DNA of 64,000 bases from Corallococcus sp. AS-1-6. Lineage in GTDB: Bacteria; Myxococcota; Myxococcia; Myxococcales; Myxococcaceae. Shown in pieces: positions 86 to 6,322 of the stretch. The stretch covers positions 186,001-250,000 of the forward strand of contig NZ_JAIQDE010000004.1 of assembly GCF_020037015.1 (NCBI RefSeq), in the 5' to 3' direction. The notes beneath the pieces were generated by a model, which saw nothing but the letters and a program-made list of their open reading frames with translations, did no database searches and was not told the origin of the DNA. A program made the translations under genes and the position numbers. Positions within the stretch are counted from its first letter, which is position 1. Each line of letters begins with the position of its first letter.

Positions 86-658
86 ATGACGGAACAGGAA
101 CTGGCGGACTGCATCCGCAGGGCGGCGCGCGGAGAGCAGGCCGCGTGCGGTCAGCTCTACCAGCGCTTCCACGGGGCGGTGCGCCGCGTGGCCCAGGGCT
201 CGGGAGTCCTGGGCACGGCGGAGGTGGAGGACGCGGTGCAGGAGACGTTCGTGCGCGCCTTCCGCGAGCTGCCCCGGCTCCAGCACCCGCGCGCGTTCAG
301 CGGCTGGCTGCTGACCATCGCGCGGCATCACGCCTACGCGCTCAGCCGGGGCGTGAAGGCCCGGGCCCGCGTGGAGGAGGACCTGGCGCGAGAGCTGGAC
401 ACCACCGCGCCCGCGCTGCCTCCGTCATTGACGCTGGAGCGCCGCGTGGCCGTGGTGCGCCAGCTCATCGAAGGGCTGCCCGAGGGCCCGGAGAAGGAGA
501 CGGCCCGCCTCTTCTATCTGGAGGGCGAGCTGAGCGCGCGGGAGATCGCCGACCGGCTGGGGCTGGGCAAGAGCGCGGTGACGATGCGGCTGGAGCGCTT
601 CCGGGCCCGCGTGAAGCGCGAGCTGCTGGCGCGGCTGCTGGCCGCGGAGGTGGGCTGA
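86..658 (+). CDS. ECF-type RNA polymerase sigma factor
   Basis: Predicted 190-residue extracytoplasmic-function sigma factor that would redirect RNA polymerase to its own promoters. Region 2 is visible at about residues 20-90, with the QETFVRAF segment and a WLLTIARHHAY stretch typical of sigma-2.3/2.4. Region 4 is at about 133-183, with the helix-turn-helix EIADRLGLGKSAVTMRL. The reading frame is open upstream to 35, but I chose the ATG at 86 because a GGGGAGGG ribosome site sits just before it and the protein then begins with the usual short leader. The stop is 3 bases from the next gene, a membrane protein with a zinc anti-sigma-like motif, so the two probably form a sigma/anti-sigma pair. 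The sigma subgroup and target promoters cannot be told from the window. Confidence 0.9.
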   Translation: MTEQELADCIRRAARGEQAACGQLYQRFHGAVRRVAQGSGVLGTAEVEDAVQETFVRAFRELPRLQHPRAFSGWLLTIARHHAYALSRGVKARARVEEDLARELDTTAPALPPSLTLERRVAVVRQLIEGLPEGPEKETARLFYLEGELSAREIADRLGLGKSAVTMRLERFRARVKRELLARLLAAEVG

Positions 659-661
659 ACC

Positions 662-1459
662 ATGGGCGCGAGCGACAGACACCTGGACGTGGAGTCCGCG
701 AAGCAGCTCGAACGGCGCGAGCCCGAAGCGGTGCGCTACTTCGCCGAGCACCTCTCGCGGCCCTGTGAGACGTGCGAGGCGTTCCTCGCCCGCGACGAAG
801 CGGAGCCTGACGGGTTCCCGGGGCTGGATGCCCTGGCGGACGAAGCGCTCGTCGCGGCCTCGGGCCGTCCCGTGCGGGAGGACGCGGTCGGTTGGGCGCG
901 GGTGCGCCGGAAGCTGGGTGCGCCCCAGCGGGTGTGGCTGACCGGAGGACTGGGCGCGGTGGCCGCGGCGGTCCTCCTGGCGCTCCTGGTGCGCCCGGGG
1001 ACCGGAGGGCCGGGCAGCGTGGAGCCTCCCTCCCAGCGCATCAAGGGCACGGCGCCGCTCGCGCTGGAGCTCACGGCGGCGGCGCAGATGCCCGGCGGTG
1101 AGGTGCGCGCCGTCTCCGAGGACGCGGTGCTCCCGCCCGAAGCCGTGGTGGTCCTGCGCTACCACGCCAGCGAATCCGCGGACGCCCTGCTGGTGCGCGA
1201 AGCCCCTGGCGTGCCGCCGCAGGTGCTGGGCCGCCATGTGCTGACGCCGGGCACGCACGACCTCCGCGACGGCGAGGACCTGGCGGGCGTGTCCCTGGAG
1301 GACGAGCGTGGACCCGTGACGCTGGTGCTGGTCGCCTGGCCGCAAGGTGAGCAGGAGAGCCCGGCGCTGGAGGCGGTGCGTGTCAGCGGACAGGTGCCAC
1401 CCGACGCGGCCCAGGCCCGCCTTCGCTTGAGGGTGGAGTCGGGGCATGCTGCTCCCTGA
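662..1459 (+). CDS. Probable membrane anti-sigma factor
   Basis: 265-residue single-pass membrane protein. The cytoplasmic N-terminus carries His30, Cys35 and Cys38 (spacing H-x4-C-x2-C), close to the H-x3-C-x2-C of zinc-binding anti-sigma domains but one residue longer. A hydrophobic segment at about 91-110 follows an Arg-rich stretch, so the N-terminus should face the cytoplasm. About 150 residues lie outside and resemble a beta-rich sensory domain I cannot name. It starts 3 bases after the sigma gene and its stop overlaps the ribosome site of the caspase gene. Position and topology argue for control of the upstream sigma factor; this is inference. The altered zinc spacing means it could also be a non-zinc anti-sigma or just a membrane sensor. 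Confidence 0.7.
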   Translation: MGASDRHLDVESAKQLERREPEAVRYFAEHLSRPCETCEAFLARDEAEPDGFPGLDALADEALVAASGRPVREDAVGWARVRRKLGAPQRVWLTGGLGAVAAAVLLALLVRPGTGGPGSVEPPSQRIKGTAPLALELTAAAQMPGGEVRAVSEDAVLPPEAVVVLRYHASESADALLVREAPGVPPQVLGRHVLTPGTHDLRDGEDLAGVSLEDERGPVTLVLVAWPQGEQESPALEAVRVSGQVPPDAAQARLRLRVESGHAAP

Positions 1460-1469
1460 GGAGCCGCGC

Positions 1470-3131
1470 GTGTCCCGCCTGCTGTTCATCCCCCTGGTGC
1501 TGGCGCTGGTGGCGCTCGGCGCGTGCCGCTCCGTGGAGCCACGGGAGAAGGGCCGCGCGGTGCGGGTGCGCCTGGAGGAGGGCGTGCTGGCGTCGGCGCA
1601 GGAGGGCGAGCGGCACGCGCTGCTCATCGGCATCTCCGCGTACACGGACCCTGCCTGGAACGCGCTGCGCTACGCGGCGAAGGACGCGGACGACCTGGGC
1701 CGCGTGCTGGCGGATCCGGTGCGCGGAGGCTTCCGCTCCGTGACGGTGCTCACGCGGCCCGAGCAGACGACGCGCACGTCGGTGCTCGCGGCGCTCCAGG
1801 CGCTGGAGGCGCGTCCGTGGCGGCCGCAGGACACGGTGGTCGTGTACGTGTCCGGGCACGGCTCGCTGGCGCGCGACGTGAGGGGCGAACTGCAGCGCTA
1901 CCTGGTGACGTCCGACACCCGCTACCGGGACGTGGCGGGCACGGGCCTGGACATGGCCACGCTGGAGCAGTCGCTGGAGCGGCTGGGGTCGCGGCGGCGC
2001 GTGCTGGTGCTGGCCACCTGTCACAGCGGCACGGGCAAGTCGCTGCTGCCGCCGGAGGTCCGCGACGAGCTCGCGCACACCAAGGCGTCCTTCCTCCCGC
2101 AGCCGCTGGAGGCCGCGAGCCGCGCCTCGCTGGTGCTGTCCGCCAGTGACTGGGGCGAGGCCGCGCGCGAGGACGACGCGCTGGCCAACGACATCTACAC
2201 GCACTTCCTCATCCAGGCGCTGGACGGAAGCGGCGACCGCAACCGGGACGGCGCGGTGAGCGCCACCGAGGCCCACGACTGGGCCCGCCGCAACACCTGG
2301 GCCTATACGGAAGGGCGGCAGCGTCCCAGCGCGCAGATATTGGAGGTGGGCGCGGATCCGGTGCTGCTCTCCGGCTCCTTGCAGCGGCCGGGGCAGCCGG
2401 AGGTCTTCTCCTACAGCGCGAGGCTGGAGGGCTTCACGCTCAAGGTGGACGGCCGCGACGCGGGCGAGCTGCCCGGAGGCGTGGTGGTGCCCGAGGGCCG
2501 GCGGAAGCTGGAGCTGCGCAAGGGAGGCCAGGTGTTGTGGGAGGACACCGTGGCGCTGCGCTCCGGCGAGCGGCGTGAGCTGGAGGCCTTCCTGCGCCCC
2601 AGGGCGGACGGGCCCAGGCGGACGGTGACGCTGGGTGGAGGCGTGCTCGGCTTCCTGGATGGACAGAGCCGCGAGCAGGTGCTGCCGGCGTCGGCGCAGG
2701 CGGGCGTGGGGCTGGGCTGGGAGGGCGTGCTCCTGGACGGGAAGCTGGACCTCTGGGTGGACGTGGCGGCGGGGCAGGGAAGTCAGTCGCTGCGGTTGGA
2801 CCCGGGCGGCGACGTGCCGGTGCGGCACCGCTCGTTGCTCGTGGGCGTGGCGGTGGGGCCCACGTGGACGTGGGGCCGGCTGGGGCTGTCCACCGGGCCG
2901 CGCGTGGCCGGATTGTGGTTGCAGCGCTCCTTCCAGTTGGAGTTGTTGGACCGGAACGAGCAGTACGTGACGGCCTGGCCGGGCTGGATGGCCGCGCTGT
3001 CGTTCCGCTTCAGCCCGGTGTGGATGGTGGAGGCGCGCGCGCAGGCGTTGTGGGCCTACGTCCCGGTGGACGGGCAGACGCGCACGGTGGGCTTTGGAGG
3101 CCTGATGCTGGCCGGAGGGTACCGCTTCTGA
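1470..3131 (+). CDS. Caspase-fold (peptidase C14) lipoprotein with beta-barrel-like C-terminus
   Basis: 553-residue exported protein. The GTG at 1470 gives a compact signal peptide ending in a lipobox (LGAC, Cys19), and an AGGAG site overlaps the preceding stop codon; an ATG at 1446 would add eight poorly fitting residues. The caspase-like domain spans about 48-300, with catalytic His130 in VSGHG and Cys184 in ATCHSG. Residues 256-267 form a canonical EF-hand loop (D, N, D, G, V, S, E at the expected positions), often seen in this family and suggesting calcium dependence. Residues 315-378 resemble a PEGA-like beta domain. Residues 385-553 are alternating amphipathic strands ending in Gly-Tyr-Arg-Phe, as outer-membrane barrels do. 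Substrate unknown. Likely tied to the sigma/anti-sigma pair upstream. Confidence 0.85.
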   Translation: MSRLLFIPLVLALVALGACRSVEPREKGRAVRVRLEEGVLASAQEGERHALLIGISAYTDPAWNALRYAAKDADDLGRVLADPVRGGFRSVTVLTRPEQTTRTSVLAALQALEARPWRPQDTVVVYVSGHGSLARDVRGELQRYLVTSDTRYRDVAGTGLDMATLEQSLERLGSRRRVLVLATCHSGTGKSLLPPEVRDELAHTKASFLPQPLEAASRASLVLSASDWGEAAREDDALANDIYTHFLIQALDGSGDRNRDGAVSATEAHDWARRNTWAYTEGRQRPSAQILEVGADPVLLSGSLQRPGQPEVFSYSARLEGFTLKVDGRDAGELPGGVVVPEGRRKLELRKGGQVLWEDTVALRSGERRELEAFLRPRADGPRRTVTLGGGVLGFLDGQSREQVLPASAQAGVGLGWEGVLLDGKLDLWVDVAAGQGSQSLRLDPGGDVPVRHRSLLVGVAVGPTWTWGRLGLSTGPRVAGLWLQRSFQLELLDRNEQYVTAWPGWMAALSFRFSPVWMVEARAQALWAYVPVDGQTRTVGFGGLMLAGGYRF

Positions 3132-3757
3132 TGCGAGCCAGGACATGCGGCGGAGCGCTGGTGCTGGCGCTCGTGGGCTGCGGCGGATTCGACAACGGGG
3201 ACCTGCGCACGGGCGTCGTGCGGGGCCGCGTGCTGGGCGCGGAGTCCGGCGTCGCGCGCGTCAACGTGATGGGCGACTCGGAGCTGCGCGCGACGGTCGG
3301 TTCGGACGGCCGCTTCGAGCTGGCTGGCGTGCCGGCGAGAGCCCTGGAGCTGTTCGTGGTCGCCTCCCGCACGCAAGCCGCGAGGACGACCGTGATGGCA
3401 CAGGGCGCCCGGGTCACCGACGTGGGGGACATCCAGGGGAAGCCCGGTGCCTTCCTGACGGTGAGGGTGCGGGACGAGCAGGGCGCCATCCCGCCGGACG
3501 TCGAGGTGGAGCTGCGAGGCACGGGAGAAGACCGCGCGAAGGTGGACACGAGCAGCGGCGAGGTGCGCCTGGGGCCGCTGCCCGCGGGCTGCTACGCGCT
3601 GGAGGTCAAGGCCGACGACCTGGAGGACGTGGAGACGGAGGTCTGCGTCCGGGAAGGCGAGGAGCGCGTGCAGCCCATCACGCTGCCCGCGGACGACGAC
3701 GGCGGCGGGGACGATGACGGCGGCAGCGACGACCACGGCGGCCGGGACGGCGGCTGA
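3131..3757 (+). CDS. Lipoprotein with carboxypeptidase-regulatory-like domain
   Basis: 208-residue lipoprotein with a lipobox ending at Cys17 (LVGC). The start codon overlaps the caspase stop by one base (TGATG), so translation is probably coupled. Residues 28-95 and 105-185 look like two beta-sandwich repeats of the carboxypeptidase regulatory/transthyretin-like type (VRGRVLGAESGVARVNV, then a matching VEVELRG segment). The last 22 residues are almost only Asp and Gly with one His and one Arg, a possible cation-binding tail. No catalytic motif is visible, so it is likely structural or a partner of the caspase protein. The first ATG in the longer open frame, at 2864, lies inside the caspase gene and is rejected. 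Confidence 0.75.
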   Translation: MRARTCGGALVLALVGCGGFDNGDLRTGVVRGRVLGAESGVARVNVMGDSELRATVGSDGRFELAGVPARALELFVVASRTQAARTTVMAQGARVTDVGDIQGKPGAFLTVRVRDEQGAIPPDVEVELRGTGEDRAKVDTSSGEVRLGPLPAGCYALEVKADDLEDVETEVCVREGEERVQPITLPADDDGGGDDDGGSDDHGGRDGG

Positions 3758-3859
3758 GCAGGGAAGGGGCCCGGGTCGCAATGTTCTGGGCCCATTCGCC
3801 CGCGTTTCCCGTAAATAGGCGGGGTCCCGACCTCCTCCTTGCCCCTCGAAGGTGACGAC

Positions 3860-4903
3860 GTGAACGACCGACTCCTGCGCACGGCGCGCCGCCAGCCCAC
3901 CGACACCACCCCCGTGTGGCTGATGCGTCAGGCGGGCCGCTACCTGCCCGAGTACCGCGCCATCCGCGGCAACATCGCGTTCCTGGACCTCTGCAAGGAC
4001 CCGGACCTGGCCGCCGAAGTCACCGTCCAGCCCATCACCCGCCTGGGCGTGGACGCGGCCATCATCTTCTCCGACATCCTCATCCCCGTGGAGGCCATGG
4101 GCATCCACCTGGAGCTGGGCGACAAGGGCCCCCACTTCCCCAACCCCCTGCGCACGCCCGCGGACATCGACAAGCTCGGCGTCCCCGACCCCGTCGAAGG
4201 CACCGGCTTCGTCGCGGAGGCCATCCGCCGCACGCGCAAGGCCCTCAATGACTCCGTGCCCGTCATCGGCTTCGCGGGCGCGCCCTTCACCCTGGCCGCG
4301 TACATGGTCGAGGGCGGCGGCTCCAAGAGCTACATCCAGATCAAGCGCCTCCTCTTCGAGCAGCCGGAGGTCGCCCACCGCCTCTTCCAGAAGCTCACCG
4401 ACACCCTCATCCCGTACCTCAAGATGCAGGTGGAGGCCGGCGCCAAGATTGTCCAGATCTTCGACTCCTGGGGCGGCGAGCTGTCCCCCTGGGACTTCGA
4501 GCGCTTCAGCCTCCCGTACCTCACCCGCATGGTCACGGAGCTCAAGGCCACCGGCGTCCCCGTCATCCTCTTCGGCGTGAACATGACCCCGCACCTGCCG
4601 CTCCTGAAGCGCACCGGCGCGGACGTCATCGGCCTGGACTGGCGCTGCCCCGTGGACGAGGGCCGCCGCATCCTCGGGCCGGACGTGGCCACCCAGGGCA
4701 ACCTGGATCCGCTCCACCTCTTCCTCCCCCGGGAAGAGCTGGACGGCCGCGTGAAGGACATCCTCCGCCGCGCCGGCCCCACCGGGCACATCTTCAACCT
4801 GGGCCACGGCATCCTCCCGCCCACCGACCCGGACGCCGCGAAGTTCCTCGTGGACGCCGTCCACAAGCACGGCGCCGCCCTCCGCCAGGGCACGCTCGAC
4901 TGA
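3860..4903 (+). CDS. hemE: Uroporphyrinogen decarboxylase
   Basis: 347-residue cytoplasmic enzyme that removes four carboxyl groups from uroporphyrinogen III to give coproporphyrinogen III in haem synthesis. The family signature PVWLMRQAGRYLPEYR is at residues 18-33 and the catalytic Asp72 sits in IIFSD. The second signature GFAGAPFTLAAYM follows near 137. I chose the GTG at 3860 because it follows a GAAGG ribosome site and gives the same N-terminus (NDR-L-LR) as known HemE proteins; a TTG at 3839 adds seven residues with no support. It stands alone between the lipoprotein gene and the fad operon, with about 100 bases on either side. Confidence 0.97.
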   Translation: MNDRLLRTARRQPTDTTPVWLMRQAGRYLPEYRAIRGNIAFLDLCKDPDLAAEVTVQPITRLGVDAAIIFSDILIPVEAMGIHLELGDKGPHFPNPLRTPADIDKLGVPDPVEGTGFVAEAIRRTRKALNDSVPVIGFAGAPFTLAAYMVEGGGSKSYIQIKRLLFEQPEVAHRLFQKLTDTLIPYLKMQVEAGAKIVQIFDSWGGELSPWDFERFSLPYLTRMVTELKATGVPVILFGVNMTPHLPLLKRTGADVIGLDWRCPVDEGRRILGPDVATQGNLDPLHLFLPREELDGRVKDILRRAGPTGHIFNLGHGILPPTDPDAAKFLVDAVHKHGAALRQGTLD

Positions 4904-4934
4904 ACAGGTCCCTGCCCGGCCATCTGGCGAGCAG

Positions 4935-4950
4935 TTGACTCAAGAATCAA
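4935..4950. promoter_or_regulatory. Near-palindrome upstream of fadI-fadJ, possible operator
   Basis: TTGACTCAAGAATCAA is a 16-base near-perfect inverted repeat (TTGAnT/AnTCAA) lying about 70 bases before the fadI start, in the only untranslated gap before the operon. Position and symmetry fit a repressor site for beta-oxidation genes. No matching site was seen elsewhere in the window, and no regulator can be named. Confidence 0.35.
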
Positions 4951-5020
4951 TCCAGCGTTGACGCGGTGCATTGCCCGCCGTTAGAAGCGCCTCACTCGGT
5001 TCACAGAGGGTGAGGCACAC

Positions 5021-6322
5021 ATGGCAAGCGAGAAGCGCAACGGCCACCGGCGGGTGGCCATCGTCCGGGGGCTGCGGACGCCGTTCGCGAAGGCGGGCAC
5101 CGTCTTCGCGAACCTGACGGCGCTGGACCTGGGCCGCATGGTGGTCCAGGAGCTGGTGCAGCGCAGCGACCTGGACCCCCACGAAATCAACCAGGTCGTC
5201 TTCGGACAGGTCATCCCCACGCTGACCGCGCCCTCCATCGCGCGTGAAGTGGTGCTGGCGGCGGGCCTGCCCAAGCGCATTGACGCCTTCACGGTGGCGC
5301 GCGCCTGCGCCACGTCCATCCAGTCCATGGTGGCGGGAGCCAACGCCATCGCGCTGGGCGACGCGGACGTCGTCATCGCCGGTGGCACGGAGTCCCTGTC
5401 GGACGCGCCCATCTTCACCAGCCGCCCGCTGGCGCACGCGCTGGCCGCGTCGTCCAAGGGCAAGAGCCTGCCGGACAAGCTCAAGCCCTTCCAGAAGCTC
5501 AAGGCCAAGGACCTCATCCCCGTGCCCCCCGCCATCGCCGAGTACTCCACCGGCGAGACCATGGGCGAGAGCGCGGAGAAGATGGCCAAGGAGAACGGCA
5601 TCACCCGCGAGGAGCAGGACCTCATCGCGTTCAACTCGCACCAGAACGCGGCCCGCGCCTGGAAGGAGGGCCTGTTCGACGGCGAGGTGATGCACGTCAC
5701 CGTGCCGCCGAAGTACGAGCAGACCGCCACGAAGGACAACATCGTGCGCGAGGACACCAGCCTGGAGGCGCTGTCCAAGCTCAAGCCGGTGTTCGACCGC
5801 CGCTATGGCAGCGTCACCGCCGGCAACGCGTCCCCGCTGACGGACGGCGCCGCGGCGCTCCTGCTCATGAGCGAGGAGAAGGCGAAGGCGCTGGGCTACG
5901 AGCCGCTGGGCTTCCTGCGCTCGCACGCCTTCGCGGCCACGGACCCCGGAGACCAGTTGCTCCAGGGCCCGGCGTACGCGGCGCCCGTGGCGCTCAAGCG
6001 CGCGGGGATGAAGCTTTCGGACATCGACCTGGTGGAGATGCACGAGGCCTTCGCCGCGCAGGTGGCGAGCAACCTCCAGGCGCTGGCGTCCAAGGAGTTC
6101 GCGAAGAAGGCGGGCTTCAACGCGCCGGTCGGCGAGGTGGACCGCTCGCGGCTGAACGTGACGGGCGGCTCCATCTCCATCGGGCACCCCTTCGGTGCCA
6201 CGGGCGCGCGCATCATCACGCAGGCCCTGAATGAGCTGAAGCGTCGGAACAAGAACACGGTGTTGTGCACCGTCTGCGCCGCGGGTGGCCTGGGCGCCGC
6301 GGTCATCCTGGAGCGTGCGTGA
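5021..6322 (+). CDS. fadI: Acetyl-CoA C-acyltransferase (3-ketoacyl-CoA thiolase, FadI-type)
   Basis: 433-residue thiolase carrying out the last step of fatty-acid beta-oxidation, cleaving 3-ketoacyl-CoA with CoA. Nucleophile Cys96 (RACATS), His341 (MHEAF), His389 (GHPFGATG) and Cys419 (CAAGGLG) are all present. Length and sequence resemble E. coli FadI (436 residues), the thiolase of the FadIJ complex, more than FadA (387). A GGTGAGG ribosome site lies just before the ATG. Its stop overlaps the start of the downstream multifunctional subunit by one base, so the two subunits are probably made in equal amounts. Confidence 0.95.
   Translation: MASEKRNGHRRVAIVRGLRTPFAKAGTVFANLTALDLGRMVVQELVQRSDLDPHEINQVVFGQVIPTLTAPSIAREVVLAAGLPKRIDAFTVARACATSIQSMVAGANAIALGDADVVIAGGTESLSDAPIFTSRPLAHALAASSKGKSLPDKLKPFQKLKAKDLIPVPPAIAEYSTGETMGESAEKMAKENGITREEQDLIAFNSHQNAARAWKEGLFDGEVMHVTVPPKYEQTATKDNIVREDTSLEALSKLKPVFDRRYGSVTAGNASPLTDGAAALLLMSEEKAKALGYEPLGFLRSHAFAATDPGDQLLQGPAYAAPVALKRAGMKLSDIDLVEMHEAFAAQVASNLQALASKEFAKKAGFNAPVGEVDRSRLNVTGGSISIGHPFGATGARIITQALNELKRRNKNTVLCTVCAAGGLGAAVILERA

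Follow-up and report, generated by a model that had tools for sequence, protein, structure and literature searches.

Near the start of a 64,000-nucleotide stretch of Corallococcus sp. AS-1-6 DNA (the window; contig C44, bases 186001-250000, within the 9.5 Mb genome that we label G000), four adjacent genes encode an extracytoplasmic function (ECF) sigma factor, a membrane protein that resembles zinc anti-sigma factors, an exported caspase homolog that ends in a predicted outer-membrane barrel, and another lipoprotein. We propose that this cassette is a dedicated cell-surface signaling module and that the caspase, from the outer membrane, controls the anti-sigma factor, probably by cleaving the portion of it that lies in the periplasm. 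We think that this proposal has nearly as good a chance of being right as of being wrong. The four genes are:

86 to 658, forward strand: ECF sigma factor gene (190 amino acids)
662 to 1459, forward strand: gene for an anti-sigma-like, single-pass membrane protein (265 amino acids), the 662 gene below
1470 to 3131, forward strand: gene for an exported caspase / PEGA-like / outer-membrane barrel lipoprotein (553 amino acids, GTG start)
3131 to 3757, forward strand: gene for a lipoprotein with two CarboxypepD_reg-like domains (208 amino acids)

In the sequence of 86-3757, the junctions are, in order, 3 bases, 10 bases, and a 1-base TGA/ATG overlap. These genes and spacings match exactly those given by an earlier reading of this DNA from its letters alone (the sequence-only reading below). 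The caspase gene has an alternative ATG start at 1446, but we prefer the GTG at 1470 because GGAG lies immediately 5' of it and because the orthologs align from it.

The sequence-only reading had proposed looking for the same four-gene order in other myxobacterial genomes, and it named a lack of joint conservation in relatives as a ground for refutation. The order is conserved, and the cassette passes this test. We found homologous loci by tblastn with the four proteins and by searching 79 additional named loci with profiles, and both searches gave the same order around the homologs. All four genes are present in 51 loci, and they occur together across the Myxococcaceae, Anaeromyxobacter, and related metagenome-assembled genomes. 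The same order is still seen in relatives with only about 26-30% identity, and junctions of -4, -1, or +3 bases are common. Furthermore, the trees of the four genes from the 51 full cassettes are congruent (r = 0.92-0.97 for pairwise distances), and the clade of window-type cassettes is recovered in all four.

The link between caspase and sigma factor is tighter still. Upstream sequence of 2.2 kb or more was available for 77 caspase loci, and in 74 of these a sigma gene lies immediately upstream of the caspase. As for the three exceptions, L161 has, by eye, a divergent ECF-like sigma factor and a membrane protein beside the caspase; no sigma gene was seen at L160; and L174 is itself a distant partial match. 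Because the linkage is nearly obligate, it favors the view that the caspase is part of the switch itself.

The same genome has a second complete cassette (L038; contig C22, 276557-280324) whose caspase is 52% identical to that of the window. Both types of cassette are found in M. xanthus AM003 (L104 and L137), so this unit occurs in a tractable model organism. More distant caspases of Corallococcus sp. AS-1-6, which differ in architecture (on contigs C81, C2, C20, and C65), also follow a sigma gene and an anti-sigma-like gene. In all, 6 of the at least 7 caspase loci in this genome adjoin a sigma gene (our counts of PF00656 family members in this genome are lower bounds). The sole caspase found there without a sigma neighbor (L061, 5884-6747, on contig C10) is short, cytoplasmic, and metacaspase-like, with a DSCHS site. 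The nearest named relatives of the window's caspase are from Corallococcus species and are 90-94% identical. A record named Comamonas sp. KCTC 72670 has both Myxococcus-like cassettes (L101 and L123) and is probably a misnamed myxobacterium.

The sequence-only reading had described the products as an ECF sigma factor, a membrane protein with an H-x4-C-x2-C motif, an exported caspase with intact histidine and cysteine, and a second lipoprotein, and profile searches and alignments bear out these descriptions. The barrel, the PEGA-like domain, the EF-hand-like loop, the promoter-like element, and the second cassette of the genome are additions to that reading. The sigma factor matches Sigma70_r2 in Pfam (8.5e-12) and TIGR02937 in NCBIfam (2e-17, spanning residues 20-180), both over the cut-off, while the Pfam models for region 4 score under the cut-off. 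Overall, it has the arrangement of an ECF sigma factor: regions 2 and 4 without region 3, in about 190 amino acids.

The 662 gene adjoins the sigma gene in all full cassettes. Its product has these predicted features:

680 to 775, forward strand: predicted zinc site, formed by H7 (680-682), H30 (749-751), C35 (764-766), and C38 (773-775), which are invariant columns of alignment A2
938 to 994, forward strand: transmembrane segment at about residues 93-111, from the hydropathy of orthologs, transferred by alignment
1043 to 1048, forward strand: Lys128-Gly129 in a disordered periplasmic linker, a candidate cleavage site, invariant in alignments A2 and A4
1061 to 1435, forward strand: periplasmic beta-sandwich domain, residues 134-258 (AlphaFold2, pLDDT mostly above 90)

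The protein has no match in Pfam (none at E = 1) or NCBIfam, and hence none to zf-HC2. Across the 21 homologs in alignment A2, H7 and the three motif residues (H30, C35, and C38) are invariant, and these four would be the His/Cys ligand positions that are conserved in zinc anti-sigma (ZAS) factors. ZAS factors are defined by H-x3-C-x2-C (PMC2877774), whereas the spacing here is H-x4-C-x2-C. We describe the 662 product as zinc-anti-sigma-like rather than as a ZAS factor, and we predict that it binds and inhibits the sigma factor. Like RsrA, ChrR, and RslA, it has a predicted His/Cys zinc site in its N-terminal anti-sigma domain, and it shares with ChrR a histidine as the fourth ligand (PMC2877774). 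Unlike them, it has the H-x4-C-x2-C spacing, no match to zf-HC2, and a periplasmic beta-sandwich domain.

The 662 product has one hydrophobic segment, and the residues that follow are predicted to be disordered (residues 109-128; pLDDT below 50 with AlphaFold2). The beta-sandwich domain is distantly DUF4384-like by way of its paralogs. We rejected membership in DUF4384 because only paralogs match it, and weakly (the paralog on C2 matches PF14326 at 2.4e-4, below the cut-off), and the 662 product has no direct match. A structure search with this domain returned generic Ig/PDE-delta-like sandwiches at low TM-scores, and no relative by sequence was found in PDB.

The third protein combines a caspase domain with features of an outer-membrane protein:

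1470 to 1526, forward strand: signal peptide and lipobox LGAC (Cys19); most homologs have a lipobox
1611 to 2378, forward strand: caspase (C14) domain (PF00656), with His130 at 1857-1859 and Cys184 at 2019-2021
2235 to 2270, forward strand: EF-hand-like loop DRNRDGAVSATE, residues 256-267; the motif is in 84 of 88 caspase loci
2427 to 2597, forward strand: PEGA-like domain, residues 320-376 (PF08308, E = 0.0045, weak)
2619 to 3128, forward strand: predicted 8-stranded outer-membrane beta-barrel ending in GYRF (AlphaFold2, Foldseek)

The match to Peptidase_C14 is well over the cut-off (2.9e-10; 40.6 bits versus 21.4), while that to PF08308 is under it (17.3 bits versus 20.8). His130 and Cys184, which would form the catalytic dyad, are invariant across 34 caspase homologs (alignment A1). 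The AlphaFold2 model (mean pLDDT 83.7) runs from the signal peptide through a disordered linker, the caspase domain, and the PEGA-like domain to eight long strands. The modeled caspase domain resembles MALT1 paracaspase (Foldseek, 4.4e-10) and metacaspase-1 (5.5e-9), as expected for a caspase fold. The loop fits D-x-[NDS]-x-D-G-x-[VILT]-x3-E, which is the pattern of an EF-hand calcium-binding loop, and is a putative calcium site. The disordered linker between the lipobox and the caspase domain contains a near-invariant Lys-Gly.

The model has exactly eight long strands, at residues 384-552, which run to the C-terminal YRF and are predicted to close into a barrel. Foldseek matched this part to OmpX, OmpA, OmpW, NspA, and other small outer-membrane barrels (best E = 5e-9), and the C-terminal residue is aromatic in 58 of 88 caspase loci. 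Together, the lipobox and the barrel apparently put the protein in the outer membrane. The sequence-only reading had called it a lipid-anchored caspase, but with a predicted C-terminal barrel it is more than that. The termini of even-stranded barrels, including known 8-stranded proteins, face the periplasm, so the catalytic domain should be periplasmic. This would place it in the same compartment as the beta-sandwich domain of the anti-sigma-like protein.

A promoter-like element precedes the sigma gene. GTGGCC-N15/16-[AG][GC]TC[CT] is found 5' of the sigma gene in most cassettes, and GTGGCC alone is present in 46 of 50 upstream stretches, versus 29% of random stretches from the same loci. The window-type element lies at C44:185933-185959, which is 42-68 bases to the left of window base 1, and the window-type pattern has a single match in the genome, ahead of the window operon. 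(We dropped an early candidate for the window-type promoter, GTGACTCCTTCC-N-GTACTG, in favor of GTGGCC-N16-ACTCC, which is common to the second type of cassette.) This element fits autoregulation of the operon by its ECF sigma factor. In the L038 cassette, the promoter-like element GTGGCCGATTCGCCCAACAGGAGGTCT is about 36 bases before the annotated start of the sigma gene, which suggests a near-leaderless mRNA. The pattern for this second type has 2-11 sites per genome, some of them coding, versus 0-2 for the control. For regulon leads we considered only sites that are kept across species ahead of genes, and we named those genes by eye. In Corallococcus sp. AS-1-6, copies lie at C22:280978, C47:12761, C17:73481, and C3:275015, several of them kept across species, and the genes behind them (for a DUF4382-like lipoprotein, an M4-like metalloprotease lipoprotein, a PilZ-like protein, and an exported protein) are candidates for the regulon of the paralogous sigma factor.

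In the mechanism that we favor, the zinc-type anti-sigma factor in the inner membrane would keep the ECF sigma factor inactive, with its beta-sandwich domain in the periplasm. The transducer would be the caspase, anchored at the outer membrane through its N-terminal lipid and its C-terminal 8-stranded barrel, with the catalytic domain on the periplasmic side. An envelope signal, possibly calcium at the EF-hand-like loop, or else a ligand or perturbation sensed by the barrel or by the partner lipoprotein, would set the caspase to work on the anti-sigma factor at its periplasmic part, which it would most likely cleave. Once freed, the sigma factor would drive transcription of this operon and perhaps of a small number of envelope genes. 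In a more specific version, the caspase-barrel fusion would be a site-1 protease whose target in the anti-sigma factor is the juxtamembrane Lys-Gly; calcium binding may trigger the cut, and the Lys-Gly of the fusion itself may serve for self-release. We consider this version rather unlikely; if true, a caspase would serve to relay a signal through the membranes of the Gram-negative envelope. Metacaspases do cleave after lysine or arginine and require calcium (PMC9622860). Also, among the zf-HC2 or zinc-type proteins of this genome, Lys-Gly after the membrane helix is found solely in the caspase-linked protein on C2.

Several observations weigh against this mechanism. Lys-Gly is present in relatives of the anti-sigma-like protein that have no adjacent caspase (L179-181, L183, L185, L186, and L193; five are independent). 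We therefore rejected Lys-Gly as a caspase-specific cleavage motif and kept it as a lead; the motif may simply belong to the anti-sigma domain. The acidic S1 pocket of metacaspases includes an aspartate two residues before the catalytic cysteine. Here the site reads ATC, while other paralogs have DSC, and D72 is kept; because the pocket is altered, specificity for lysine or arginine is uncertain. At L183 (G047:C47, about 2909-5200), the position of the caspase, after a sigma factor and a DUF4384-like anti-sigma factor, is taken by an exported protein resembling a zinc metalloprotease. Finally, a regulator encoded together with its target would give the same operon layout of sigma factor, anti-sigma factor, and exported enzyme.

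Indeed, the caspase and the lipoprotein might simply be the output: the sigma/anti-sigma pair would sense envelope stress alone and induce an outer-membrane protease. The sequence-only reading had put forward both possibilities: feedback of the caspase on the sigma factor, or control of an envelope death or killing enzyme by the sigma factor. The layout of the operon and the upstream element suit positive autoregulation with effector genes downstream, and the element of the paralogous sigma factor is also found ahead of the DUF4382-like lipoprotein and the M4-like metalloprotease lipoprotein. Such a protease might process envelope proteins, kill neighboring cells, or aid developmental lysis, and the caspases of M. 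xanthus have been tentatively tied to developmental autolysis (PMC3501461). However, genes that are the output of a regulator tend to become separated from it, while this class of caspase is almost never found without a sigma gene (the 74 of 77 loci above), and caspases of differing architectures adjoin sigma/anti-sigma pairs in this one genome. We consider this explanation, along with the roles it offers for the protease, somewhat unlikely.

It is less probable that the caspase fold is a non-proteolytic sensor, with the barrel and caspase binding a ligand or the anti-sigma factor and signaling by contact, as from FecA to FecR. In FecI-FecR-FecA cell-surface signaling, an ECF sigma factor is combined with an inner-membrane anti-sigma factor and an outer-membrane barrel. 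The window cassette would have this general plan in one locus, with a periplasmic domain on its barrel protein, and the altered S1 pocket would suit a sensor. But His130 and Cys184 would not be expected to be invariant in a pseudo-enzyme, and no TonB-type receptor, plug domain, or FecR-type anti-sigma factor is among the Pfam or NCBIfam matches of the four proteins. Instead of a TonB-dependent receptor there is a small 8-stranded barrel, a caspase takes the place of the signaling domain, and a zinc-type anti-sigma factor that of FecR. Least probable of all, and in our view a long shot, is that the caspase chiefly matures itself or its partner lipoprotein, with sigma control being mere co-expression. 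Metacaspases self-process (PMC9622860), and the Lys-Gly in the linker of the caspase protein is compatible with this. On the other hand, this Lys-Gly is kept in Anaeromyxobacter homologs that seem to lack a lipobox, and in 26 of 81 loci no partner lipoprotein was found, while the sigma factor is usually still there.

If the favored signaling mechanism is right, then the cassette would resemble RpoE-RseA-DegS in that a periplasmic protease governs an inner-membrane anti-sigma factor. DegS, however, is a PDZ serine protease of the inner membrane, whereas here a caspase at the outer membrane would play that part. Bacterial caspase homologs are usually discussed as cell-death enzymes, and to our knowledge most have no known role. 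The four-gene unit of these predatory soil bacteria suggests a concrete signaling role for a large class of myxobacterial caspases.

The sequence-only reading took a lipid-anchored caspase in such a role to be new. The association itself is not: Asplund-Samuelsson and colleagues (2012, PMC3501461) placed 4 of 5 M. xanthus metacaspases in operons with sigma-70 genes and listed such operons in Myxococcus xanthus, Anaeromyxobacter, Haliangium, Sorangium, Ralstonia, and Fibrobacter. This is the same pairing of sigma factor and caspase homolog as in the window cassette. The passages available to us name the sigma factor only, with no mention of an anti-sigma factor, a barrel, a lipoprotein partner, a promoter element, or a mechanism. 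We found no account of the caspase-barrel fusion or of the four-gene unit in the literature that we searched (which did not cover subscription journals).

Kaur and colleagues described caspase/EACC2 conflict systems with ECF sigma factors and proposed activation by auto-proteolysis (PMC8195603). The window cassette likewise has a caspase domain and an ECF sigma factor in one neighborhood. Unlike those systems, its four genes include no EACC domain, TRADD-N protein, or NTPase, and its caspase is exported. The caspase scores below the cut-off for NF047832 (caspase_w_EACC1; 96.9 versus 140 bits), and no EACC match was found among the four genes. We also rejected a role in anti-phage defense, as PADLOC matches the caspase alone (PDLC02987, residues 48-242) and none of its three partners.

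The last protein of the cassette has its lipobox cysteine at Cys17 and matches CarboxypepD_reg (PF13620, 2.3e-13). Its gene is next after the caspase in 55 of 81 loci. Many orthologs (such as L031, 422-1498) have a C-terminal cysteine-rich tail with weak matches to Myxo_Cys_RPT, while the window's lipoprotein lacks this tail and ends in an Asp/Gly tail. The next gene downstream of the cassette, at 3839-4903 of the window, encodes uroporphyrinogen decarboxylase (hemE) and is apparently unrelated to it.

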